Origin: Tetrahymena elliotti 4EA
Taxonomy: Eukaryota; Ciliophora; Oligohymenophorea; Hymenostomatida; Tetrahymenidae
Direction: 5' to 3'
Assembly: GCA_000231825.2 (NCBI GenBank)
Contig: JH720294.1
Location: forward strand, 2,202,654-2,266,653
DNA: 64,000 nt
This document shows, piece by piece, positions 2,553 through 60,678 of this stretch. Below the pieces are notes generated by a model, which saw nothing but the letters and a program-made list of their open reading frames with translations, did no database searches and was not told the DNA's origin. The position numbers and the translations under genes were made by a program. How positions within the stretch are numbered: position 1 is the stretch's first letter; each line of letters begins with the position of its first letter.

Positions 2553-3665
2553 TCAGCCAGAAATTCCTTTGAAAGTTCCATTTGTTATATCAGCAATTGC
2601 ATTGAGGAATTCAAAAGAGAGCTTTCTTTCTTATTGGGTCTCAGTACCTCCCATGATAAATGAAATGGTGTTTATCTTAACTTTTTCTTATCTCTTAGAA
2701 TTCTTTTCTGCCAAATACTTCTTGATACCATCCACAGTTATGACACCATTGTTAGGCACTCCATCAGAGAGAAGGTATATGGTGTTAATATTTTCTTTTG
2801 AGTTAAAAGCCAAGTCTAATCCACCAGATATGTTAGTTGCACCTGTTGTTACTAATTTGTTTATGAAAGCAATGGCAGCTTAGATATTTTCTGGTGTTGC
2901 ATCTATAACGTCTTATTTCCATTGAGTAGCTTTAGTGCTAAAAATAATTATATTGAACTTTTAGTATGATTTCAATTATTCACCAATTGTTTTTGTTAAC
3001 TAAGCTTTAATGAATTATAAACGAGATATAGTTTCTCCATTTGCTTTGAATGTATAATCCATAGAACCAGAAATATCAATAACAAAAGTTGCAATTTTAG
3101 AAGTAATTGTTCCATAAATACAATTTCTAGGAGCAACATCATCCAAAATTGCTTGGGCTTCAGTCTTATCAGAGGTAAAAGTAAATTAATTTACAATAAG
3201 CTTCTTAGAATTTTCAGAAACATCATTTAGAGTGTTAGCAATCAGCTTTAAAGCTCCCATTCTGTTAGAAGAAAAGACCAACTTATTTAAGATATCCACT
3301 ATATTCTATGAACTCAAAGATTGAATAAAAGGATTGAAAATTTACATAGATTTCAAACGAGAATTATCAAAAGTGAGTTTAGTTATTGTTTCAACAACTT
3401 ATTCAGATGAAAAAACATGGGAATCAGTTGGAATTTGATCTTATATGTATTTAATCTAATCACTATCAGATTTAGATCCAGAAAGACCATCTAAAAATTT
3501 CTTCATCCAAGCATCAGATCTATATTAAGGGTTTGGGCAAAATGTCTCAGCTGCCTTAGTTGGAGCAGCAGCCGAATTTTACTCAGTGGATAAATGGCTC
3601 TTGCGGAAAGCAGTTGTTAGTCCTAGCAATGCAAATAAAGCCAAGATTAGGATTTTCTTATTCAT
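2553..3665 (-). CDS. Secreted DUF4476-like / von Willebrand factor A domain protein
   Basis: A complete intronless gene of 370 aa, from the ATG at 3665 to TGA at 2553-2555. Residues 1-19 are a hydrophobic signal peptide. A DUF4476-like region spans about 80-180. The vWA domain fills 190-365 and has all MIDAS elements: DISGS (197-201), the TGATN threonine, and the LLSDG aspartate. This predicts an extracellular or vesicle-lumen cation-dependent binding protein. There is no transmembrane segment after the signal peptide and no obvious GPI signal; the chain ends ITNGTFKGISG. It is the tandem paralogue of the partial gene at 1-672, whose missing C-terminus should resemble this one. Codon use is more AT-rich than in that copy, with more TAA/TAG glutamines, suggesting lower expression. 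Confidence 0.92.
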
Positions 3666-4763
3666 CAAAACTTATATTTTAATTAGTATTTATTTATCTT
3701 TGTTATAACAAATAATTACAATTTTAAAAGATATTCTTTTGACCACTTAAATATCCTAGTTATTTTTTTGATCAAAGCAAATAAAGGTTCTTTCTTTATT
3801 AATTAATAATCAGTCTAACCTAAATAGTAAATAGATATGTAGTGAGTCAGCATCCTCAAGTTCTACATTAGAATAATACAATTTGTTTATCTTGATAATA
3901 TTTACATTTTATTAAAAATTATTTAAATTTTTACCAAGAAAATATCTATGAAAAGTAAGAATGGGTTAAATAGCCATATTATTTAACCATCTGTCATTTA
4001 TATTTTGGTTTTTTAAATTTTTGATCTACATTTTTACTTTCATGTGCAAAGATAAATAATCATAAAATAAATAAAATATATATTCTCAAAATATGTTAAA
4101 TCCTCACAAACCTTCAATTTTTTTGGTAAAATAGACATTCAAATTAATCTAATCTATTTTTTCATATTTATTCAGCATACAAATTCAAAATTTTCATCAA
4201 GTAAACCAATCAAAATTTCAAGTGTTTAAATATTTTTAAAAAATTTAATTTTTTACATAGCTTGGCTTTAACCTAATTTTAAAGTTAATTCATAATTTTA
4301 ATTTATGTTCTTTATAACTGAATTAAGTATGTATCTTTTAGTAGATCAATTAAGAAAATTAGAATAAGATATAAAATAAATCCATACAAGTATTTTTTGA
4401 ATTAAGATGGTTGGTTTTTGAAAGTTTCTTTTGTAAAATTTTAAAAAGTAAAAGACTAATTTTTGAACAAATAAACTTTCTTCTTCAAAATTATACTAAT
4501 TTATCTCAATTATTTTCTACAAGATTAAAAATACATTTATCTTGTGATAGATAGGTGCTTTATCTATACTTTTTTTGTTTGATTAAAAATTATTTTATAG
4601 ATTTTAATATATTTTTTATGATTAAAAATAGTGTTTTGTTATTCTTTTTTTAGAATGACTATTTAATTTAATTCATTTTTTAATTGTGCTTTATTGGTAA
4701 ATTTTGAATTTTTAAGATAATAAATTAAACTGAGAAGGAGATTAAGATAATTAAATATCTAAA
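3666..4763. other. Divergent intergenic region
   Basis: About 1.1 kb lies between two divergently transcribed genes and should contain both promoters. It is a mosaic of A and T runs. No conserved motif or coding segment could be supported. Confidence 0.6.
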
Positions 4764-6005
4764 ATGTAAAGTAAAAAAGAAGATGATTAAATATTTTATC
4801 GATTTTAAACTAACAGTGAAACTTCTGAGTTTTTTAAAGAAATTACTTTGTTTAAATAGCTATTTTTGGGAAGAGTTTCTGATTAAATAGAAGATGAGTA
4901 TGAAGTGAAGAATGTTTGGAGTCAATTTATAATTAGATATCTACAATATCCTGACTATTGTTTGATATTTAAAAACTAGATTTAAATTACAGCTGATTAT
5001 TATTTGTATCAGCATCTTATGAAAAAAGGCTTTGATTTTTAGAAAGATCCTACTTTATTATGGGATTTAGAATAGCTTAACAACTAAATTTCATTCAAAT
5101 TCAGCTCAATCATGGAAAGAATATCAAATGATGATAAAGAATTTTCATAAAATTTAGATTTAATTATTAATAAGTAGAAGTTATGTGATGAACATAATTA
5201 ATACTAATATAATATAAACAATTATAATATATTAATGAGGTAATATAAAAATATTTAAAATGTTTAACCTGATTAAGAAGGATCTAATGATGAAAAACTA
5301 TTTCTAAATTAAGAATAAAATAAAGATCTTAGTATAAATATATAAAGGAGTTAAGAAATAATTCATTCTGATTTTGATAGCGTTATGAATTCTAAGATAT
5401 TTTTAACTTTATTTTGGTACAATTACATAGGAATAGAAAATGGTTAATAGTGGTCATTAAATAGAGATGTATTTGACTTATTGAAGTAGTATTTGGATAT
5501 AAAGACAGAAGTTTTTGCTTCTCCTTTTAATAAAAATTTGGATAACTATTTTAGTCTGTTTGAATCAGATAAAAGCTTTGGGAGTCTAGGAAATTTTAAT
5601 AAAAATTACTTAAATATTTAGTAAAGTTTTTAGGCTAATCCACCATTCATAGACAGTTTATTTACAGCATTTGCAAGTTAAATTTTACAAATTATACATG
5701 TAAATACTTAAAATAACAGAGAAATAGGATGTATTATAGTGTTTCCTTGGTAGGATAATTAAGGCTATTATACATTGCAAAATAGTGAATATTTTATAGA
5801 TGAAATTGAATTACTAAAAAATGCACACTACTACACAGACTAAATGTCTAGTTCTTCAATCAAATCAAAGTTTAATACATACATACTCATTCTTGGTAAC
5901 AGCTATTTCAAGGATAAATACTCTAAAATTTAATACCTCTCAGATAGCATTGTTGATGCTTTCTAAATAAAAAAAGACAACATAATTAGTATCAAATAAC
6001 TTTGA
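4764..6005 (+). CDS. PCIF1-family (CAPAM-like) putative mRNA cap adenosine N6-methyltransferase
   Basis: Intronless, 413 aa, from ATG 4764 to TGA 6003-6005. The second half matches the PCIF1 catalytic region. A block EVFASPFNKNLDNYFSLF leads to the methyltransferase motif NPPF at residues 292-295. This is followed by a helix (IDSLFTAFASQIL), a hydrophobic strand (IGCIIVFPW) and a C-terminal strand (YILILGNSYF). Human PCIF1 uses an NPPF motif to N6-methylate cap-adjacent 2'-O-methyladenosine (m6Am) on capped RNA. The N-terminal 170 residues are Q/N-rich and poorly conserved, and I see no WW domain, so binding to the polymerase II tail is not implied. Family assignment is by motif recognition. 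The RNA substrate is inferred, and an adenine methyltransferase of another specificity is possible. Confidence 0.8.
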
Positions 6006-20732: not shown

Positions 20733-22378
20733 AAATAAGATAGATAATTAAATAATAATTTATTATATTTATTTTATTTAATAATTTATTTTAATTTGTA
20801 AATAAAATTAATAATCTAATCATTCTATCAATTTCATTTTTAACTTTTTAATACTCTAATTAAATAACAAATAATTTTGTGTTTTAAATTTTATTTTTTA
20901 TTTTTTTAATTACAGCTTGATAGAATTATCAATATTTTAAAAAAGTTTAAATTTTTTTAAGTAATTCAATTTAGCAGTTAATTACAGTTAAAAGATAATT
21001 TGAGAAAAAATTTTTGGCAGAAAAAATTTAGAAAAACAACAAATAATAATAAAATAAATATCAATAATAATTAACTCATTACTTATTATTTAAATCTAAG
21101 AACGAAATTAGAATTTATTATTTAAATTTATTAATAAATTGTATGCTTATCCATTAATTCATTTTACATATTTAAATAAAATAAATAATGAGTGTTTATT
21201 ATGTGGGTGGGATTCAAAATTAAAAAATATTTTGTAAGTATTATAATAAAATAAATATTCAGTTGCTCCCTATTTAATCAATAATATTATCTAACAAATT
21301 CCCTCCCAATCTATTATATCTATTATTTGTTTTGTAAATAAAATGTTTATCTAATAATTATTTAATCAAAATTTTACATAACAAATAATCTGCATTTAGT
21401 CACCTTTGCCTTTGCTTCCTTAATTTATAGAGGATGATATTTTAAATGCTAAGATAAATATATCCCAAAATATTCTTACATGTAAAATGAATTAATTTAT
21501 TCCTCAAATAGTTTGTTTTTTTAATTCTCTTTTTTAAAAAATAAAAAAATTCTTGTTCTTCTCCAACAGTTTTTTGGCTGATAGACAATATTTTATATGA
21601 AATGTATGGATAAAACAAAATAAATTAGTATTTTAAATTTAAAATAAAGTTTTTTGTTGTTAATCACTAGTTTAGTTTACTTATTTTTATTGAAATATGT
21701 AGTAAAATTTTATCTAATTACTAAGAAAAACTTTAAACAACTAAAATTTTTGAGTAGAATGTTATTAGCTTTTTTATAGTTTAATTTTTTTAGGTTATTT
21801 ACTTTGTAAAAAGCAAAGACCAAAGCAATCTCTCCAAAAATGTTTTAAAGTTGTGTAAAAGTAAATTTTTTAATGGTATTTCTAAGATGCTATTTTTTAA
21901 GAAATGTATTTTAAACTTTTATAAATTGACTTTATGTAATCAGCTTCTTTTTGTTTACAATGGTCTACAAATTAAAAATACAAACAATAGTAATTTAGTA
22001 TTTTATTACATTTTTCAATCAATATTTTATAAATTTTTTGATGGGGATTTATCAATTTAGATGAAATTAATTTTTTGAAAGCACTTATTTTTTGAATAGA
22101 GAAGATTTACAGAAAATTCAAACAGTTATTTATAAATAATTGCACATTTAATAGCAAATAAATGATAAATAATCAAAATTTAAATTTGTTTAGACAATCA
22201 ATACTTTAATCTGAATATACTAATACTTATATGCTCTCTTTCTCAATTACATTTAGTAGTAATAAAATTAATAAAAAAAAAATAAGTAATTATAATATAT
22301 CAAATAGAACATAAGCAGAAATCCCTAAAAAAGTAGAAATATAAAAATATATAAAATAAGATTGAAAATAGGTTAGAA
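20733..22378. other. Intergenic
   Basis: This 1.6 kb AT-rich spacer lies between the kinase gene and the first PI-PLC gene. The short open stretch at 21851-22060 has no recognisable product. Nothing else is seen. Confidence 0.6.
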
Positions 22379-23332
22379 ATGTCTTGCTGTTTACTTAGTA
22401 TGTGTTGCATTCTTCCTTAAAAAAGAAATCACTTTTCAACAAAAAGAACACCTACCCCTTCATTACTTCAAAGCAGTCTTTATGGATCACCAAATAAATG
22501 GTTATCTTAAATTGATGATGAAACTTATATATCAGATATCAACATTCCTGGTACTCATGAAACCATGGCACTTTATTCTTACTTTACTTTATCCATACCA
22601 GTATGCTAAAAATGGCTACTTAAAGATCAATTAGAAAGTGGAATTAGATTTTTAGATATCAGAGTTAAGGAAGATAAAAATGGATTACTGCCCATTCACC
22701 ATGATATTGTTTTTTAGAAAGCCTACTTAGAGCAAGATGTCATAACTATTTGTGAGAAATTTTTAGCTTAAAATCCATCCGAGTTCATTATTTTGATGAT
22801 TCGTATTGAGCAAAATGATAAAAAAGCTCCATCTTTAAGCAGTAGATTTGATTAGATTGTTTAATAAAGAAGGAGTAGTGTATTTAGCTTTGAAAGTACG
22901 ATTCCTAAAATTAAAGATATGAGAGGTAAAATATGGGTATGGAATGGAAATAATTGGAATTATAAAGGATTTAGTATATTCAATATGTAAAAGACTGGTG
23001 TCTTAGTCCGTTAAGATAATTATGACTGCTCTATTAAAGAAAAAAAAAGATTAGTTAAAGACACATATGATTTGGCTGTATAATTTTAAGAAAATAGAAG
23101 AGATGGGGTTGAAATATATCTAAATTAATCCAATGGCTCCTAATGGTATGATTGGCCATCATCTTATGCTGAAGAAATGAATAAATATGTTTATACGAAT
23201 AAATATTATGATGGTATACTTGCTTTTGATTTCCCTGGAGAAATCTTAATTAAAGAAGTTATTGAAACCAATTTTAAAAATCAAAAAAATTAAAAAAAGT
23301 AACTCGACGGATATAGTACCAGCCAAAATTGA
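22379..23332 (+). CDS. PI-PLC X-domain protein (bacterial-type phosphatidylinositol phosphodiesterase fold)
   Basis: Intronless, 317 aa, ATG 22379 to TGA 23330-23332. The sequence shows the single-domain PI-PLC TIM-barrel landmarks: INIPGTHETMA with His60 (first catalytic histidine position), SGIRFLDIRV (90-96), LLPIHHDIVF with His107/108 (second catalytic histidine), and NPSEFIILMIRIE. Family members cleave phosphatidylinositol or GPI anchors without calcium. There is no signal peptide. The N-terminus MSCCLLSMCCILP is a cysteine cluster that could be S-acylated and tether the enzyme to a membrane; this is inferred. A paralogue follows 1.06 kb downstream on the same strand. Glutamines are frequently TAA/TAG. 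Confidence 0.88.
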
Positions 23333-24395
23333 CTGTTTTTATTAATTAATTTATTTAAAAGTAATTCTACTAAAATGATAACTAACTTGTTATTTTATCA
23401 TTTTAAATTAACTTCCAAAAATATTAATCTCATCAAATTAAATTCCCTTTATTAACATAAAAAACTAACAATTTATTTTGTTATTTACTTTATATGTTAG
23501 TTATTTTTTATTTATTTTCTTATGTATAAAAATTGTATTTTGTTGTTTTATCTTTTTTCGTTATCATTTTAATATATTCTTTTCTCTACTAAAGTATAGA
23601 ATTTAATAAAAAATCTAAAAACAAATCAAATTTAATCATTTTTTTAAATAAAATATTATTAAATTTTAATTATTTTATCAACTAAATTATTTTTACTTCC
23701 TATAAAACCTGTATTTTTTACTAAATTCAAAAATTAAATTATGGTTGTAGAGGAATGTTTGATGAAATTAGATCCTTTTTTGATGAGTTTAGTTAAATAA
23801 AAATCTTTAATAAATACCTTAGGATGCCCATTAATTCTCAAAAACAAAAATCAAAGAATTTGTGAATTTTTCTAATCACTAAATTTATATTTTATCTCAA
23901 AAATTAGAAGATTTTGAAAACTCAAATTAAAACAATTACCATGAATCTTATTAATATTTTTTTTATAAAAATACTTTTTTTAAAAAGAAATTAATTAGAT
24001 ATCTTTAGTAAATAATATTTTTGGTGCTTTAAAAACAATAAAAAATAATTTAATAATCTATTCAAGCTTTAATAGCATGTAATGATAGAATACCTAATTA
24101 AATTCTAAATATGTATAATTTAAAAAAGAAATAGATGAAGTAGAACAAGAATTAGAAATAGAAAGATAGATATTTAGTTTCTACTGATCTACTCATTGAC
24201 TTACTTGATTAATAAATAAATAAATTACAAATATTTTTAATTAATCTTAAATCATTTTTGACAGAAATTTTTGGTATTATTAATAATTTGAGATACAAAA
24301 TAAACTTTCTAAAATTTAATAGATTTAAATTAGATATTAAAAATCAAATTAATAATACTTTCATTTAATTATCAAATAATTTATAGAATCAACAT
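23333..24395. other. Intergenic between PI-PLC paralogues
   Basis: About 1.1 kb of AT-rich spacer. A short open stretch from 23742 (starting MVVEECLMKLD) ends at a TGA after about 60 codons and matches nothing I recognise. It was not annotated. Confidence 0.6.
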
Positions 24396-25355
24396 ATGTC
24401 TTTTTGCCTTTGTCTTTGCTGCTGCAGTAACTTGTGCTGTATACTCCCTCAAAGGAAAGGTCACCTCTCTTTAAAGAGGGAGCCAAATTTTAAGTATTTG
24501 TAAAGTAAAATTTATAATTCTACTGAAAACTGGATGTAAAATTTGAGTGATGATATTTGCGTTTCAGAGATTAATTTAGTAGGAACACATGATTCTCTTT
24601 CATTATTTCCCTTTTTTGGACTCTAGATATCAGTATGCTAGAGATGGCCATTACTAGAATAATTAAAAAGTGGAAATAGATTATTCGATATTAGGGTTAA
24701 AGAAGATTTAGATGGTAAATTACCACTTTATCACAGTTTATCATTCTAGCATAGCTATCTAGAAAAAGATGTAATAGATATAATAGACTAGTTCTTGGCT
24801 AAAAATCCTAGCGAATTTGTTATTTTGATGATAAGAATTGAGAAGAAAGACCCAAAGGCCCCCTCTTTATCAGCTGGGTTTGATAAAATAGTGAAAAGAA
24901 AGAGATAAAATTTATTTTCATTTGAAAGTTGGATACCTACATTAAATAAATTAAGAGGTAAAATTTGGATTTGGCCAGGAAACAACTGGGATTACAAAGG
25001 ATACAGTATGAAACAGAAAATAAGTACAGGATAACTAATACGTTAAGATTTTTACGATTGCTCAGTTTCAAATAAAAAAGAAGTTATTAAAGAAATTAAC
25101 AACCTAGCTTATTATAATAGGAATCTCAGATAATCTGGATAGGAAATATACTTGAACTAAATGAATGGAGTCAATTGGTATTGTTGGCCAACTTCCTATG
25201 CAAATTAAATAAATCAATATGTCTATGAAAACTAATTATATGAAGGCTATCTAGTTTTTGATTTCCCAGGAGAAAAAATCATAAAAGAAGTAATTGAAAG
25301 TAACTTCTACTCACCTAAAGAATACTTCACCAAAGACTATGAGAGCTTTGAATGA
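24396..25355 (+). CDS. PI-PLC X-domain protein, tandem paralogue with altered active-site surroundings
   Basis: Intronless, 319 aa, ATG 24396 to TGA 25353-25355. It aligns along its whole length with the preceding gene: INLVGTHDSLSL (His65), SGNRLFDIRV, KLPLYHSLSF (His113), NPSEFVILMIRIE, and the C-terminal FDFPGEKIIKEVIE. Both catalytic histidine positions are kept, but the first histidine of the HH pair is tyrosine and the following aspartate is serine, so activity or specificity may differ. The N-terminus (MSFCLCLCCCSNLCCILPQ) is an even denser cysteine cluster, again suggesting membrane attachment by S-acylation. Only the CCILPQ core is shared with the other copy. Confidence 0.88.
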
Positions 25356-33482: not shown

Positions 33483-36400
33483 TCATATCTTTTTCTAAAA
33501 CATTTAATATGATTAGCTTTTATCACTGTTATTATTTTCAAAGAATGAATTTTATCCTTCCATAACACCTTAATTAAAATTCCATTAATTACTGTAAAAG
33601 CCATCAAAATCAAGTCTTGCAATCAAATTAATTAAGTAAGTATCATATTTGGTAATCCTTTTGAAAATATTAATTAATTTAAATAAAAATTTAACCCCTG
33701 ATTTAACTTTACATATTGTTTATTATTTTCATTAGATCTTTTAGACTCGAATCAAACTTTAATGTGGATTTTTAAAAGTAGTCTTTATAGTTCTTTTCTG
33801 CAACAAGAATTCTTGCATGTTTTCTTTGTTCCTTTTTTAATTCCAATTTAATAACAAAATAACAATTACAAATAAATAAAGTTACTTCAACTTATTTTTT
33901 TCTTAACTGCAAAGGAGTTTTCTTTTCATCTTCATTTAAAAGTTGTGCTGCATTTTAGCTCTAATTTAATATAGAAACAAGCTTTAAAATTAATTTTTTC
34001 ATGTATTTCTCTAGTTTTAATTCTTGAAATTTTATTTTGTTAAAAATTAATTTCAACAAAAATATTATTTTGAGAAAGAAAATAAATAATTACTTCAGGT
34101 TTTTTGATAATAGAAATATTGTTTTATATGAATTGAGCAAAAGTGAGACAGCAAGAATTAATGGATTAGATTGTGTTGATAAGAGAGGTATCAAGCAAGA
34201 CACATTCTTTTAAACATTCATCTAAGAATTAATCATGATGTTGAATAATATCTTCAAATTATTGGACAGATTTTAGATTGCTTTTGAGTTTTTACCATTT
34301 AGTTTCAATAACTTCAAAGCAAATATAATATATGAAATTTTTAACATAGTGGATCATTCTTTGAGTGAGTGCATATCCCTTCAAAAATATTCTTTAGACA
34401 TTTAATTCTTTCATAGATTATTAGACAAGCCAAGCATTACATAATTGTCTTTCAATATATTTGCAATAGAATAAATGACGGAATATCAATTGATATTTAG
34501 TTAGAGTTTTTCTGTTAAAAATTAAATTAAGAGGCCACTTTATTCTGTAATCTAATGAAAACAAATCTAATCCTTTTAAAGTAAGTGCAGGAGTATGAAT
34601 TTTAAATTTCTCTTGGTTTAAATCACTTAATAAATTTGGATTCATTTATGAATTTTAATAAGCAAATAGTTATTCCTTTAAGGTATATTAACTAAATTCG
34701 TATGTAAGATCTTCAACATATGGATCTGAAGATAGACTGCTTGTCCTTACTGACATTTCTAATAAACTTTCTAATTTTTCTTTAGAAACTTGCCTTGCTT
34801 ACTTCATTAATTCATCTTCAGAACTATCCATGAAGTAAACAAAGAAATCTCCTCTCTCTAAAAAGAAATAATTTTTAATTGATTTTAATCTTCCTTACAA
34901 ATCTTAATCAACAACAACTAAACTAAATTCATTCATTTAAAATAATATTAATAAATTAAATAAAATATTTGATGAATATTTTTACTGCATAATTTAAGCG
35001 TTTGCCCATTCATAAGCCTTTTAAATAGGCTAAGAGAAATCTTATATTTAAAGATATGTTTCATAATTTTAAACTAAATCTAATTCAAAAGGACTAGATA
35101 CAACCTTTCCTTCATGTTCACTTAACACACTGAGATATTTTCCTGTCTTAAAAACCATTTCTTTCCATAAAGAAAGGAAAGCAGGAACTTATTTTTCTCT
35201 CAGAATAAACCTTTAATCCCAATAATTTTCCTTAAAATCTTTAGAAATATTGTCTCTCTTAACAAAAACATTTTCCTAAATAAAAAACTCTTAAAACAAA
35301 TCATCTATTTATCCAGAGTAAATCCACTAAGAAAGCATTTAAACATAAGGAGCAAAAGACTTTTATAAAATATAATAGTAAATATCAACTATCTATTTAT
35401 CGCTAGTATTCTTAAGTAACTCATATAATTTACTCAACAATTCTCCACCCTTTTCATATTATTCAAAATTAAAAAATCTTAAAAAGCCATTTTATTTTGA
35501 TCAATTCTTTAAATCAAAAATTTAACATTTAATCAAATAATTTTTTCAATAATCTTTCTCTATAGAAAGAAAATAATTTATTAAGCTTTTGAATGAATGT
35601 AAATTACCTTGTAATTTTCAGTTTCAGAAACTAATTTGTACAAAGCTTCCATAACTTTAAGAGATGGTTGAATATAAAACCATAATTTCTATAAGGTGAG
35701 CTCAGCTTTTTGGAATTCTTAATCGAGTTAGTTAATCATAACAACATATTCTCTAAGAAGGAGTCCTAATGCTGCACAGAGAGCTTAAGAAACAGTTCCA
35801 TAAGCAAATTATTAATGTTATGATATGTAATTCTATATTTTATCATATTAAAGGCAAATTTCTAGAATTTTATTAACTAATTATTTCAAAGAACTTTCAC
35901 AAGTAGATGTTTCTAAGTAAGGTTCTATGCAATAAATATATGGCTTTCTATATTAATCTGCTTTTTTCTTAATGTAATTTCCTTTTAAATAAAAATAAAT
36001 TTACAATCCATTATTATTTAATCATAATAATTAGTTATATATTTTAAAACCATTTTGAAAGAATTAAATTACCTTCTATTCCTGTCATAACAAATAGCAA
36101 ATCTTCAATAAGATAAAGTTCCTATAATTATGGACTCATAGCTCCTAAATTTTTCTTTTCTTCTAAATTTATTTTAAAATGATATTTAATCAATAAATTA
36201 AAATGGATTTTGTTGTTTTATTTACATGTTTTATTTAGCAATTACTATTTTTCTTAATATGCAATTTATGTATTTGTGGCTGTTAAAAATGTACTAAAGT
36301 CAGTTGGTTCTGTCCAAGTTGGCATAAAGGGAACATGACTTTTACAAATTCTCCACATTGAATCAGGTGAAATATTCGGACTACTAGCGCTTACAGTGCT

Positions 36401-53894: not shown

Positions 53895-56800
53895 TCATTA
53901 TTTAAACATCTAAGCATTTTGTTGTGGTTATTGTATGCCGCCTTACTAAACAAATCCTCCATATTAATTATTTTGTTATTACAATTAGGGTTGTTATACC
54001 TATTGATAATTATTTAATTATCTTCCAGATAGAGGCTAATTAACTGTTATTTAATTATTCTAATTAGCTTGCATTTAGTTTGGATAAACAATAGCAGGCT
54101 ATGAATAAGTACCTTGTGGTTTAGGAGGTTGCTAAGCCATTTACTTATTTACAGTAGTTACAGCAGGTGGAGCAGGTCTAGAATTAGTTGAAGCTCTGTT
54201 TCTAATTAACATCAAATCGTTTTCTATAAATTCTAATCTTTCTAAAACTTCTCTGAAATCAGGTCTTTTGACTGGATCTTGCTCCCAACAGTCTTTCATT
54301 AAATCAATAAGCTATCAAATAAATTCATCATTTTTAACATTTAAGAAAATTATTTAATTAATAAAATTTTACTGTTGGAGGGCAATCTTTAGGAATGAAC
54401 TCAGGACCTAAGCCAGGTCTTTTGCCTTCACACACATTTTTCATGATATCCACAGTACTCATTTTCTAATAAGGTGTTTTTCTTGATATGAATTCCCAGA
54501 GCACAATCTAAGTATTTATTTAAAAATAAATAGGTTATTTATTTGTTATTTTAAATTATTTTACTGCATAAGAGTAAACATCTGCCTTTATAGTGTATTG
54601 CTTATTATCAAATACTTCTGGTGCCATCCAATGCTTATAAAAAATGAATAAAGGTAAATAAAAGAAAATATTATGTTAATCTTACGAAAGTTCCCAAAAC
54701 TTAAGTCATTTCGTCTTTTGATTCAGTTCTTGCTAAACCAAAGTCAGCAATTTTAACATGATATTCAAAAGATTCTTCTTGATATGGAACATCTAGCAAA
54801 AGACTAAGTTTAAAAATAAATTAATTTTTAAAATTTCATTTTTTTGGATAAAATTTACTTTAAAGACTTAAGATCTCTATGTATAATAGGTGGGTCTAAT
54901 GAATGGAGATAAATCATTCCAGTAGCTATGTCTTTACACATTTTAACTCTGTGCAACCATGGAATAGGAGTAGTATGTTTTCTGTGTAGTAAATCAAACA
55001 TAGTTCCGCCATGGCATAGTTCAGTTATAATATAAAAATTATCCTTCTTCTGAGCAACACCAATCAAAGAAACTAAATTAATTTAAGGTGATATTTTAAC
55101 CAAAGTCTCTATTTCTCTCTAAAATTCTTTTTAGTTTCTTTCATTTAAACTATTAACTTCCATTTCCTTAATAGCTACCTCTACATTATTAAACACTCCT
55201 GAAAAAACCTTACCAGAGTGACCTATATTATTTTAATTTCATCATTAATTAATAAATGAAAGCATAAAATTCTTAAAAATTAAATAATTTTACTATAAAA
55301 GGATAAATTTTATTCAATTTAAAATGTTATTGATTTGTTAAGAAAATGTATTTGAATTATTTTAATTTAATAAAACAATGTTTTAAAATGAGATAAATTC
55401 ATTTCAAAGCTTAAAATAATAATTTAAATGAATGAATGAATGAATGAATTAATTATTACCAGAACCGATCTTCTTTCCAAAGGTTATACTATGAAAATCT
55501 ACAATAAGTTATTTAGGATCTAGGAGGTATTTTAAAATAAGTGGTTATTTATTTTTAAAAATACAATTTAATGTCTGTTTTACCATGCTTGACACGATTG
55601 ATGATAAAATTTTTTAATTCAATTAGATTTTCACTGTTAGAAGAGAAAGTGGAACTTACTGATTGAAGTCTGAATTCATTTTTGAAAAAAAGTGTAAATA
55701 ATAATTATTAATAAAAAAATGAAATTATTTTACACTGGATCTTTGTTCATTAGATTATTGTTGATTTAGTTATTTGTTGCATTCATTTATGAACTCATTT
55801 AATTTAATTGGTTTAAATCGTTTCTTTTAATTGAAGCTGCATTTGTAAATTCTATAGCTTTATTATTTTCTACCATTTCACTAATATCGAATTCTTCTGC
55901 ATTTACAAACGACTAGGATGTTCTCTATTAATATTATTGATGAGACTGATTTAATTTTATATTTTAACCTAATTATTAGGCTTGCTAATTATAAAAGTTA
56001 TTGACATGCTATTTATTCTAAATTTATTATTATTAATTCACGTATTAATTGCCTTACTATTGTAGTTGTTAGTTATTAAATCCTTAATTGAAAAAATTAT
56101 AATTGGCATTATTATTCTGATTAGCATTATTGTTTAAATTTTAGTTATTTTAATTAACAAAGTTGAATTCTTCAAAGTAATTGTTTGGGGATTTTGATGG
56201 ATTTTATGAGCCAACTCTTCCCAATTAGAAATTACCAAAACTGCTTTATTATTGCTTTTATTATAATTAGTTTTAAATTTGTTAATTTGTTCCATTATGA
56301 AAAGATTAAGAATGACCCTAGTGATTATTCATATTATTGTATTGCTATGTACTACCCATCGAACCTCCTTTATTTTCTTTAAGTTCAAATTTAATTTAAA
56401 CTTTACTGCCAGCTTTTTATTAATTATTTGCATTCGGGTTTTAAAATGTAAAATCATATTAATTTTAACCTGTTTTTTATGCTGAAGATTATTATTAGCC
56501 ATTTGGATTTAATTAATAGCTAGGGGGTGTATTGTTGTTGTTATTTGCATTATTATTGTATTATCCAAAGTCAACAAAATTATTTTAAGCTGGGTTAATT
56601 TTTTAAGCAGAGTTATTATTTCTTGGAAAATTAGTTGGCTAGTTAAATGCCATATTATTTTAACCTGTTGGTGCATTCTAACTTGCTTTACGAATTTAAT
56701 TAGGATTACCAAAATTTCCATTAAAATTATTATTGGCATTTATATTATTTTAGCTTGGATTAATGAAACCTGATGTAGAATTATCAAAGTTATTGAAATT

Positions 56801-59800
56801 GAAGTCATTGAAATTTTTGTTTTAAAAGCTATTATTTGTTGTGTTGTTATTAACGTTTAAAATATTACTTTATGAATGTTTCAATCCAAAGTTCTAAAAA
56901 TTATTGAAATCATGAAATTCATCTTAAAAAATATTGTTGTTGTTCATATTGGCGCCACCTTAATTATTGCTCAAAGGATTACTGTTCATCACGTTTGGGT
57001 TAGAAGAAATCAAATTGTTATTGTTGTTCATAAAATTTTAATTGTTAAGGTTGTTATTCATATCATTGTAATCTATAAAATTCATATTCTTAAATTTGTC
57101 AATGTTAGAAGGCATCTTTTCATAGTTCAATTCACCTTAAGAATATTGTTATTTATTTAAAGATTAATGTGTAAATTCAAGTTAAAAATTTTCTTATTCA
57201 TCATCTTAATCTAAAATATCATTATAATTTTAATTGTTATCATTAATTGTTTAAGTTTCTTCTAACTCATCACTATCACTATTGTTGTTCTGAATATTAG
57301 GGTTTTCTTCATCAAATTCATCTTGATCTTCCATCAAATAATCTCCTTTATTGTATGAGTTCTTCTTTTAATTCTAGTTCACTAAGGTCTTTTTGTTATT
57401 TGCAGCTGTTGTTAAATTTCCTGCAGAAGGTCTAATAGGCATATTTTTCTTAATATTTGGATCATTACTGCTTGGTAAGTTTGCAGATTAACTAAGTTAA
57501 TTTTATTTCATCTACATAATTTAAGCAGTATCAACTAAATGATTTTATATAATCTTTTATTCAGGATTTTTATATGATGGAGTGAATTCTGTAATACCTT
57601 AAACTTCCTACTATTCATCAATATTATAATCATCATTATCTTAATCACTCAATAAATTCTTTTCTCCCCTAATTAACTAATTTCTCTTTTTAAATTATTT
57701 CTAGAAATCATAATTCTTTTCCTTTGTTTCTTAACTATTTGAATTGCTATTACTTGTTGTCTTTTAGTCATCTTTTTATCAATAAAATTTATTTTTAAAA
57801 ACATTCCTCAATTAAAAAAATGTTTAAAATAACTAAATGAAATAAGGGGGGCATGAGTAGTAATAAAATTAAGGATATAATGAGAGTATTGAGCTATGTA
57901 TATTAGACATATTGTTTTCTTTAAAAAGTTAATTTAAGATAACTACTTCTTACCAGATACCTTTAACCTTAGTATCATATCCCCCTTATCCCATCAAATT
58001 AAAATTAAATAAGATAAAGAAATATTTGTTTACCTAACTAAACGATAAGCTTTTAATTTGTAGGAGGTTTTTTTATTACATTTTCCATCTCTCTTTTCAT
58101 TTCTTCAGTTTAATTGCTATTAGTTTGTATTGTTGCTCCATATGATAATGGTAATTTAATTCCGTAAATGGATTTTTTATAATTTAAAAATTCAAACAAG
58201 TTGAATTCATTTTGCAAATCTTGCATGCAAGGAAGATTATTTATGTATTCCACTACTTTAGAATCTATATTTGGGATAAAATCTTTTTAAGTAGATTAGG
58301 AAAGTGCATTCTAGCATTTTCTGAAGAATTATTTGGCTGATTCGAAATTACGTCCAAAGTTTACTTTAAAATCTTTAACTTTGGCAAACAGTTTACCACG
58401 ATCTATATTTTTGGAGAGGTAATTAGTTGATGTTATAAAGGCAGTTAATAAATGTGTTTGTGCACTCAGTAAACAATACATTTCATCAACAAGCTAAATC
58501 ATAAGTGAAATTTATATTTCCATTAATTGGTTTTAACTCAATATTTCTTATGAAAATGTGAGCAATGATGCCATATACTTTAATAAATCTTCTATTAGCT
58601 TATGAGTTAATGGTTTGAAGTTTTTATTCATATTATCAAAGAAGGGTTTCAATGAAAAATTGCCTTCAATTAATGAGCAATATGAAACACATAAATTCAT
58701 TTTCTCTTTTAGTCTTTATGAATACATATTAATTAATTTTGTTGTAAATATTGAACGCTTTTTATCTTTTGAATCGTCACTTGGATCTATGTTTTACCAT
58801 GTTTCTATTATTTTTTTAAGAACATTCACTGCTGAAACTTTTTTTCCAACGCTACTGAGAGCCTCTGGTGGGCCTTTTTTAATGTAATTATGAAGTAAAA
58901 TAAGGGATTTAAGAGCAATAATTGTGTTTTAAACATTTTGAGGCGTCAAAAAGATGTTAAAATGATCATAAAACTTCTCTATTTTATCAGTTTTCTACCA
59001 AGCTTTTATAATTAGAAGTCTCATATATTTTTGTTTAGGTCCTTTTTCATTCTCTTCAAGGGCTGCTAAAATCCATCCTTTAGTTCTTTTATTTATCAGC
59101 TTTAGGGTTATCATTTTTTTGAATTTGTTTATCATAGTTGGCTTAACTTCTTTTTCTGTTGCTTATTTAAATATATCAGTATCCAACAGACCTGTCTTAG
59201 ACTGTAAAATTTTTAAATCTGGCCATGCTTGGAGCACAAATGATAATAACTCTGAGCTATTTGCTCTCTAACTGGGATCTCTGCAAAGCATTCTTTATAA
59301 AACTTAGTTAACATTAGCAGAATATTTAGGAAAATCAGGTATATCAACTGACTCATTAAGAACAGATATTTAGTTTTAAAATGGTTTTTTGTTGAAGCAT
59401 AGAATGTAAAGTATTACACCAATAGCAAAAATATCTACTTTTTCATTTATTGGATACCCACTTTATAAATGAATTTATTCAGGTGCTCTATATCCTTCTG
59501 TTGTATTCTTTTTAATTTCATTTTCTAAAGATGCATACTCTTCATTTTGTATCCTGTGAGTAGTCACATATGAAAAATTGGTAATTTTATAATTATTATC
59601 TTCACCAAGCAGAATATTATGCATGGTTAAATTACGGTGAATCAAAGGATTTTGTCTCATATGTAAGTACTAAACTCCTTAGAGAATGTCTCTGATAATA
59701 CGCATAATTTGTATCTCTTTTAAAGCATATGAAGGAAGTCTAACACAAATAGAATCTAAACTTCCTTTTGGACAATGCTCCATAACAAATATTCCAAATT

Positions 59801-59819
59801 CAGTATCCTTTAATATCAT
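53895..59819 (-). CDS. NAK-like pseudokinase - ANTH domain - Q/N-rich adaptor tail - TKL-type kinase (single-gene model)
   Basis: Model exons (reverse): 58034-59819, 55734-57771, 55584-55669, 55460-55519, 54859-55222, 54686-54803, 54565-54633, 54373-54507 and 53895-54311; 1690 aa. Residues 1-215 match NAK (AAK1/GAK) kinases (VMEHCPKGSLDS, NTTEGYRAPE, INEKVDIFAIGVILYILCF), but HRD is HRN (61-63) and DFG is NFS (81-83). From about 245 an ANTH domain follows (PKQKYMRLLI at 261, TIIALKSLILLHNYIKKG), the phosphoinositide- and clathrin-adaptor module of AP180/CALM. Residues 600-1290 are Q/N-rich with FQDEF. A TKL-type kinase (1304-1600) has an intact Lys1342, HRDLKSLN (1438) and ADFG (Asp1465). The first reliable ATG (59819) lies inside the kinase, so a 5' exon is missing. 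The alternative is two genes, the second starting at 57994 (exon 57961-57994), but then the first gene's stop (57975) overlaps it. Confidence 0.75.
57772..58033 (-). other. 262-bp segment: intron of a fused kinase gene, or junction of two overlapping genes
   Basis: Spliced out (GTAAAC...AAAAAG), it joins the ANTH part to the Q/N-rich part in phase (TTA G|AT GAC). If not spliced, the upstream frame runs 20 codons further to TGA 57975-57977. The downstream frame would then need an ATG at 57994 with a weaker GTATCT donor at 57960. The two open frames would overlap, with no room for a promoter, whereas other neighbouring genes here are 0.5-2.7 kb apart. I therefore favour the intron. Confidence 0.6.
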
Positions 59820-60127: not shown

Positions 60128-60678
60128 TCAATGCATTTCATGTGATAATTTTTTATTAAGCTTAACATGGATTATTGATTGATAAAACTATTAAGACAAA
60201 CTAATTCTATATTCTCCACTTAATTATTTGATATTATCTAATAAAATTTTTATGTATTGCTTTGAAGGCTCTTTTAGTAACAAAAACATTTGATTTAATC
60301 TTTAAAATATCTAACAAATGCCATGGTTTGCTTGAAAAGCCTCATGCAATTTTGTTCTACTAAATTAAGGAAAATGATTAATAAAGGAATTTATTAAAAA
60401 AATGTGCTTTTGCTTAATATTGCTTACTTTGTTTATTTAATAGGTATATTGGGTTTTTCTTCTTTCATTCTATTCCAAGCAAATACTTCCTGCTAAAAAA
60501 GATTGTAATTATTTTCATCGCTAAGATTCATAAGCTTGACTACTTAATTTGAATTTTCTTGAACTGTATAATACATAACTTATCCACCTAAATCAGTCTT
60601 AATTTCATCTTTTAGAGTCAAATTAATACCATAATCTCCATTCTTTACTTAAACTCTTCTAAATTTATTGGTTTTCAT
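60128..60678 (-). CDS. Truncated protein-kinase N-lobe; possible pseudogene or 5' exons of the adjacent kinase
   Basis: Exons 60428-60678 and 60128-60359 (68-bp intron, GTAAGC...TTTAG) give 160 aa. The sequence follows a kinase N-lobe: LGGQVMYYTV (strands 1-2), QVVKLMNL (strand 3 with lysine), NLFQQEVFAWNRMKEEKPNI (helix C and strand 4, NAK-like), LHEAFQANHGICQIFQRL (strand 5 and hinge), then ISLSQQFYQSIIHV (helix E). It ends SHEMH-stop, where HRDL would be expected. Further TGAs follow in the same frame. This is either a decayed kinase, a truncated pseudokinase, or partly the missing 5' end of the downstream NAK-ANTH gene. Codon use is coding-like. The family call is by eye. Confidence 0.45.

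Follow-up and report, generated by a model that had tools for sequence, protein, structure and literature searches.

We analysed a 64,000-nt stretch of Tetrahymena elliotti 4EA DNA (contig JH720294.1, positions 2,202,654-2,266,653 of the forward strand, assembly GCA_000231825.2; hereafter the window, in whose own numbering coordinates are given). According to our prediction, a gene on its minus strand, at 60678-53895, encodes a single protein in which a NAK-type pseudokinase, an ANTH domain, a 727-residue tail rich in asparagine and glutamine (N/Q-rich) and a TKL-type kinase are joined in this order. The strongest evidence for the fusion being real, as judged from the DNA sequence, is a paralogue in the same genome.

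The join between the two halves and the paralogue

The earlier note on this DNA had joined the halves in phase through a GTAAAC...AAAAAG intron at 57772-58033. Indeed, the pair 58033-57772 was the sole frame-keeping GT-AG pair linking the NAK-ANTH frame to the tail-TKL frame when spans of 60 nt were searched on either side. This intron contained TGA in 3/3 frames, and its guanine-cytosine content was 0.225 when compared with 0.279 and 0.240 in the flanking exons. Unspliced read-through at the join meets a TGA at 57975. The same residues flank the join, without interruption, in three proteins from the databases: those of T. thermophila (1,786 aa), T. utriculariae (1,802 aa) and T. malaccensis (1,804 aa).

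The genome (90 Mb, 134 contigs) was searched for paralogues and domains, and one close relative of the window gene was identified on contig C22 (locus L014), where the model of 1,623 aa had the same four parts. A single exon of 3,081 nt began inside the ANTH domain, covered the tail and reached the P-loop of the TKL kinase, and its frame held no TGA when compared with 22.7 expected and a minimum of 9 in 300 first-order Markov simulations. The NAK-ANTH query of the window gene found its best genomic places outside that gene in the paralogue, and the TKL exon query had its sole other genomic match at E<=1e-12 in the same paralogue gene. As the closest relatives of the two halves lie together in one other gene, the simplest reading would be a single duplication of the fused protein as a whole.

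Gene model and domains of the window gene

The model of the window gene was assembled manually, using open frames and GT-AG pairs, prior to any comparison with database relatives, with frames opened under code 6 (TAA and TAG read as glutamine, TGA as stop). It comprised 10 predicted exons encoding 1,792 residues without an internal stop. The earlier note had set the span at 53895-59819; its content proved to be real, but the span was too short, as the exon for the N-lobe of the NAK domain lies upstream at 60678-60428. The features are listed below.

60678-60428, 59874-58034, 57771-55734, 55669-55584, 55519-55460, minus strand: exons 1-5
55222-54859, 54803-54686, 54633-54565, 54507-54373, 54311-53895, minus strand: exons 6-10
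60428-60678, minus strand: exon 1, NAK N-lobe with the beta-3 lysine (VVKLM) kept and without a GxGxxG loop
59228-59873, minus strand: remainder of the NAK pseudokinase (Pfam Pkinase 1.1e-28; BIKE/AAK1/GAK best in PDB)
59639-59631, minus strand: HRN replacing HRD
59579-59571, minus strand: NFS replacing DFG
58260-59066, minus strand: ANTH domain (Pfam ANTH 39.8 bits; Sla2 and HIP1R ANTH in PDB)
59025-59036, minus strand: KQKY, aligned with KRKH of Sla2
57772-58033, minus strand: intron linking the halves, GTAAAC...AAAAAG, phase 1, 262 nt
55609-58115, minus strand: N/Q-rich tail, residues 671-1397, with introns 58033-57772 and 55733-55670 inside
54234-55519, minus strand: TKL kinase domain with GSGHSG, VAIK, HRDLKSLN, ADFG and APE (Pfam, PDB, alignment)
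53895-54233, minus strand: short Q/P-rich C-terminal tail and TGA stop (gene model)

Six of the nine introns were 52-64 nt in length and the remaining three 237, 262 and 553 nt; besides the join intron, seven further introns split the tail-TKL half. Six donor-acceptor pairs were possible for the first intron, and the pair that was picked, 60427/59875, was later matched by the three Tetrahymena proteins named above. These proteins agreed with the predicted junctions, except for a 17-residue insert at intron 55733-55670 in that of T. malaccensis.

Pfam assigned Pkinase (1.1e-28) to the frame 57978-59819. Against PDB sequences, the NAK domain of the window gene scored 113-95 bits for BIKE/AAK1/GAK, followed by a Polo-like kinase at 62 bits. 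The same three kinases were also best in the fold searches, and both NAK domains, that of the window gene and that of the paralogue, matched them best by sequence. The P-loop glycines were lost in the window gene as well as in its three relatives from Tetrahymena, with HRD changed to HRN and DFG to NFS, so that the NAK-like pseudokinase of the earlier note was recovered and the domain is likely a dead kinase. In the alignment, the P-loop, HRD and DFG of the paralogue were intact. The idea that this genome has no NAK domain outside the fused genes proved wrong, given two further NAK-like frames elsewhere (L024, C3:1375553; L027, C26:601268), judged by eye from BLAST.

The same frame also carried an ANTH domain, as had been claimed (Pfam 3.5e-10, 39.8 bits as compared to a cut-off of 21.5). 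A ten-sequence ANTH family profile matched three Sla2 sequences and one HIP1R sequence only in PDB at E<=1, the best at 2.6e-11. Structures of CALM are present in PDB; by sequence, however, Sla2/HIP1R alone matched among solved structures, and not AP180/CALM, which the earlier note had cited for comparison. The match lists of the fold searches were filled by kinases, not by ANTH structures. KKKH and a first-helix lysine of CALM bind phosphatidylinositol 4,5-bisphosphate (PtdIns(4,5)P2), according to a 2014 review (PMC4194041). The six-frame search of the genome, which introns can defeat, found PF07651 above the cut-off at two places, one per fused gene, and no I/LWEQ domain, which was also absent among the Pfam matches of five window pieces. 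A third candidate ANTH place (C28:849942) was discarded at 17 bits, below the cut-off. The ENTH profile had three places in the genome.

The TKL kinase appeared to be active, as had been proposed, given a Pfam match to PK_Tyr_Ser-Thr on the frame 54765-55196 (1.3e-20), the PDB matches and a full set of catalytic motifs (GSGHSG, VAIK, HRDLKSLN, ADFG and APE). RIPK2, CTR1, MLK, TNNI3K and TAK1 were among the best PDB matches, with an EGFR-labelled chain ranking first. We take HRDLKSLN to point to Ser/Thr rather than Tyr specificity. The T. thermophila proteins P0001 and P0139 carry the database name 'tyrosine kinase domain protein', without mention of ANTH or NAK. In the TKL tree, 14 family members grouped together (88/94) when compared to 25 other kinases, a set drawn from the kinases met among the matches rather than from TKL kinases at large.

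The tail of the window gene consisted of 23.7% N and 14.3% Q. In that of the paralogue, NPF occurred twice (p 0.018; 0.19 expected) and LIDL once (p 0.038). In the Paramecium structure model, the only full-length one (predicted template modelling score 0.39), the linker between ANTH and TKL had a predicted local distance difference test score of approximately 20-30.

Elsewhere in the window, two adjacent frames on the plus strand (22166-23329 and 23787-25352) each contained a PI-PLC X domain (1e-8 and 2.1e-8), perhaps as a tandem pair, and 4734-6002 on the same strand matched the PCIF1 WW family (4.2e-41). The minus strand carried a gamma-tubulin complex component with both Pfam halves (33935-35500) and one frame with DUF4476 and a von Willebrand A domain (2556-3809).

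Relatives in other ciliates

The closest database proteins of the window gene were from Tetrahymena species; P0001 (T. thermophila) grouped with the window gene, and P0139 (T. thermophila, 1,648 aa) with the paralogue. The search with the paralogue retrieved P0139, the Pseudocohnilembus protein P0140 (1,718 aa) and, from Paramecium, the seven proteins P0141-P0147 (1,145-1,155 aa). The Pseudocohnilembus and Paramecium proteins had the same four-part layout as the window gene, and the architecture that the earlier note wished to see sought in ciliate proteomes was found in Tetrahymena, Pseudocohnilembus and Paramecium. The Pfam scan covered 6 of the 13 relatives (P0001-P0004 and P0139-P0147) and detected two kinase stretches in five of the six (P0001, P0139, P0140, P0141 and P0145). 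The Ichthyophthirius protein P0004 is partial and extends to the start of the TKL domain; Pfam listed no family for it. Literature searched by title and abstract opening contained no such kinase-ANTH-kinase fusion, the Paramecium kinome paper lying outside that search.

On the full-length relatives, Pfam reported ANTH at E<=0.01 in 0/6, and when the ANTH region was scanned alone, 5/6 were at or above the cut-off of 21.5 (41.4, 39.4, 24.5, 21.5 and 21.5 bits). Among the five proteins common to both scans, ANTH was found in none at full length and in four as fragments. The low-complexity tail appears to hide ANTH from standard profile searches.

The state of the NAK domain varied among the relatives. 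The motifs were intact in the T. thermophila ortholog of the paralogue and in Pseudocohnilembus. Two aligned Paramecium rows kept HRD with NFQ in the place of DFG, and Ichthyophthirius had HRN and NFQ with the P-loop lost too. A set of eleven shorter proteins (P0121-P0131, considered below) kept DFG in 11/11 and HRD as well in 7/11, the variants being HQD in P0123, YRD in P0127 and P0128, and YRS in P0131. From this distribution, the NAK domain seems to have decayed repeatedly while ANTH was retained. The placement of Pseudocohnilembus differed between the trees, both with long branches: it stood with the paralogue group and P0121-P0131 in the NAK-ANTH tree (86/75) and with the window group in the TKL tree (95/87). 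A broader view, that the whole recognisable ANTH adaptor class of this lineage merged into kinases and that NAK decayed in more than one branch while ANTH and TKL were kept, is put forward tentatively, as we find it rather doubtful.

Proposed role, alternatives and known systems

In these ciliates an endocytic adaptor and a kinase are likely one molecule, and we lean towards the window gene encoding a single protein that acts as a membrane-bound scaffold and brings a kinase to sites of endocytosis. Binding to PtdIns(4,5)P2 would occur via KxK(Y) of the ANTH domain and would place the protein at coated pits, and the pseudokinase would hold, bind or regulate, not phosphorylate. The TKL kinase would be the active enzyme, with coat or cargo proteins, or its own tail, as substrates; it would be recruited to endocytic sites and could be regulated by the NAK region in a JAK-like manner. 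Activity of the AAK1 type would likely persist in the paralogue, in which both kinase domains are intact. A target for its intact NAK domain is likely present in the genome, because a mu-adaptin-family gene (L038/L042, one place, C124) carries AITGAVTWR, which presumably resembles, through TGAVTWR, the site in AP-2 mu phosphorylated by AAK1. The motif scan covered 7 of 9 loci, all short, and the motif was present at L038/L042 and not in the other five, where absence means little.

Several observations weigh against this proposal. The three Tetrahymena proteins with the join are weak as independent evidence because they are ~95% identical to one another, and they may share annotation methods. 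The eleven proteins P0121-P0131 are NAK-ANTH proteins of 652-714 aa; in the ten that were scanned, a kinase was found in 10/10, one stretch each and no TKL, and ANTH was above the cut-off in 7/10. Their C-termini lie no more than a few dozen residues from where ANTH ends, and they may have been cut at an intron or be true two-domain proteins. No counterpart of the alpha-1 lysine of the lipid motif could be located in the alignments, in which KQKY of the window gene stands at KRKH of Sla2. The Pseudocohnilembus ANTH fragment did not reach the Pfam cut-off, and the domain there rests on alignment. The window tail contained no DPF/DPW, NPF, DLL or clathrin box, one FxDxF (0.10 expected in shuffles, p 0.1), and eight FxxF when compared with 2.5 expected in shuffles (p 0.005, one of ten patterns, uncorrected). 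What the earlier note called an adaptor-type tail is accordingly long, N/Q-rich and enriched in FxxF but devoid of DPF/DPW, NPF and clathrin-box motifs, and the term is a fair guess for the paralogue and a weak one for the window gene.

A reading as two adjacent genes, in which NAK-ANTH would end at 57975, the N/Q-rich TKL part would form a separate gene downstream and the fused database proteins would be annotation errors, would fit the dependence of the join on a 262-nt intron, without whose splicing a TGA is met. However, the paralogue has its unbroken exon over the same place, the nearest relative of both halves lies in one other gene, and fused proteins occur in Paramecium and Pseudocohnilembus. 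The earlier note had held that orthologues always found as two separate genes would speak against a single polypeptide; in the ciliate proteins checked, the relatives ran as single chains, three with the same join, and the paralogue was intron-free from ANTH to the TKL P-loop. The two-gene reading was rejected on the paralogue exon and the joint duplication of both halves, and we regard it as extremely improbable. That the NAK domain remains an active kinase through unusual chemistry is also very unlikely: the beta-3 lysine and APE are kept and the domain is conserved among Tetrahymena species, but the P-loop and the aspartates of HRD and DFG are all lost, in Ichthyophthirius as well. A more serious alternative is a single chain whose ANTH domain serves another membrane, such as the phagosome, the contractile vacuole or the ciliary base, with the TKL kinase in a pathway unrelated to clathrin. 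The paucity of clathrin/AP-2 motifs in the window tail speaks for it, as does an ANTH domain that matched only Sla2/HIP1R in PDB in a genome yielding no I/LWEQ to a six-frame search, which introns can defeat. Against this, NAK and ANTH are an endocytic pairing by family, and the paralogue tail has its NPF and LIDL motifs; we consider this alternative unlikely, though less so than the other two.

The proposed endocytic scaffold resembles several known systems in part. With AP180/CALM it shares an ANTH domain with a long unstructured tail and a KxK(H/Y) sequence, whereas its ANTH follows a kinase domain instead of being N-terminal and its tail lacks DPF/W, NPF and the clathrin box. CALM proteins have shown little gain of accessory domains, as stated in a 2015 survey (PMC4450294). 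Sla2/HIP1R were the only PDB chains matched by the ANTH family profile, but the window ANTH is internal, between kinases, and no I/LWEQ was found in the five window pieces scanned or in the six-frame search of the genome. JAK kinases are pseudokinase-kinase tandems, and the window gene likewise has a pseudokinase on the same chain as a kinase that looks active; the two are of different families here, with ANTH and a 727-residue tail between them. AAK1, BIKE and GAK were the best PDB matches of both NAK domains, while the window copy is without the catalytic motifs and, to our knowledge, these kinases have neither an ANTH domain nor a second kinase domain.

In known systems, as far as we know, AAK1-type kinases and adaptors with ANTH occur as separate proteins, and evolution appears to have fused them here, with the addition of a second kinase. 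If true, adaptor, kinase and regulatory pseudokinase in one molecule would allow coat assembly and phosphorylation to be controlled in one membrane step. In the 2015 survey (PMC4450294), CALM was described as unresolved in Paramecium and as an apparent loss in T. thermophila. The ANTH domain found here in proteins of both bears on that absence, although the data do not show that this ANTH is CALM, and it may be of either the CALM or the Sla2 type. The in vivo kinases of AP180 were described as undiscovered in the 2014 review (PMC4194041). As T. thermophila is genetically tractable, its ortholog of the window gene and the active-looking paralogue make the control of clathrin coats by a kinase-adaptor testable.
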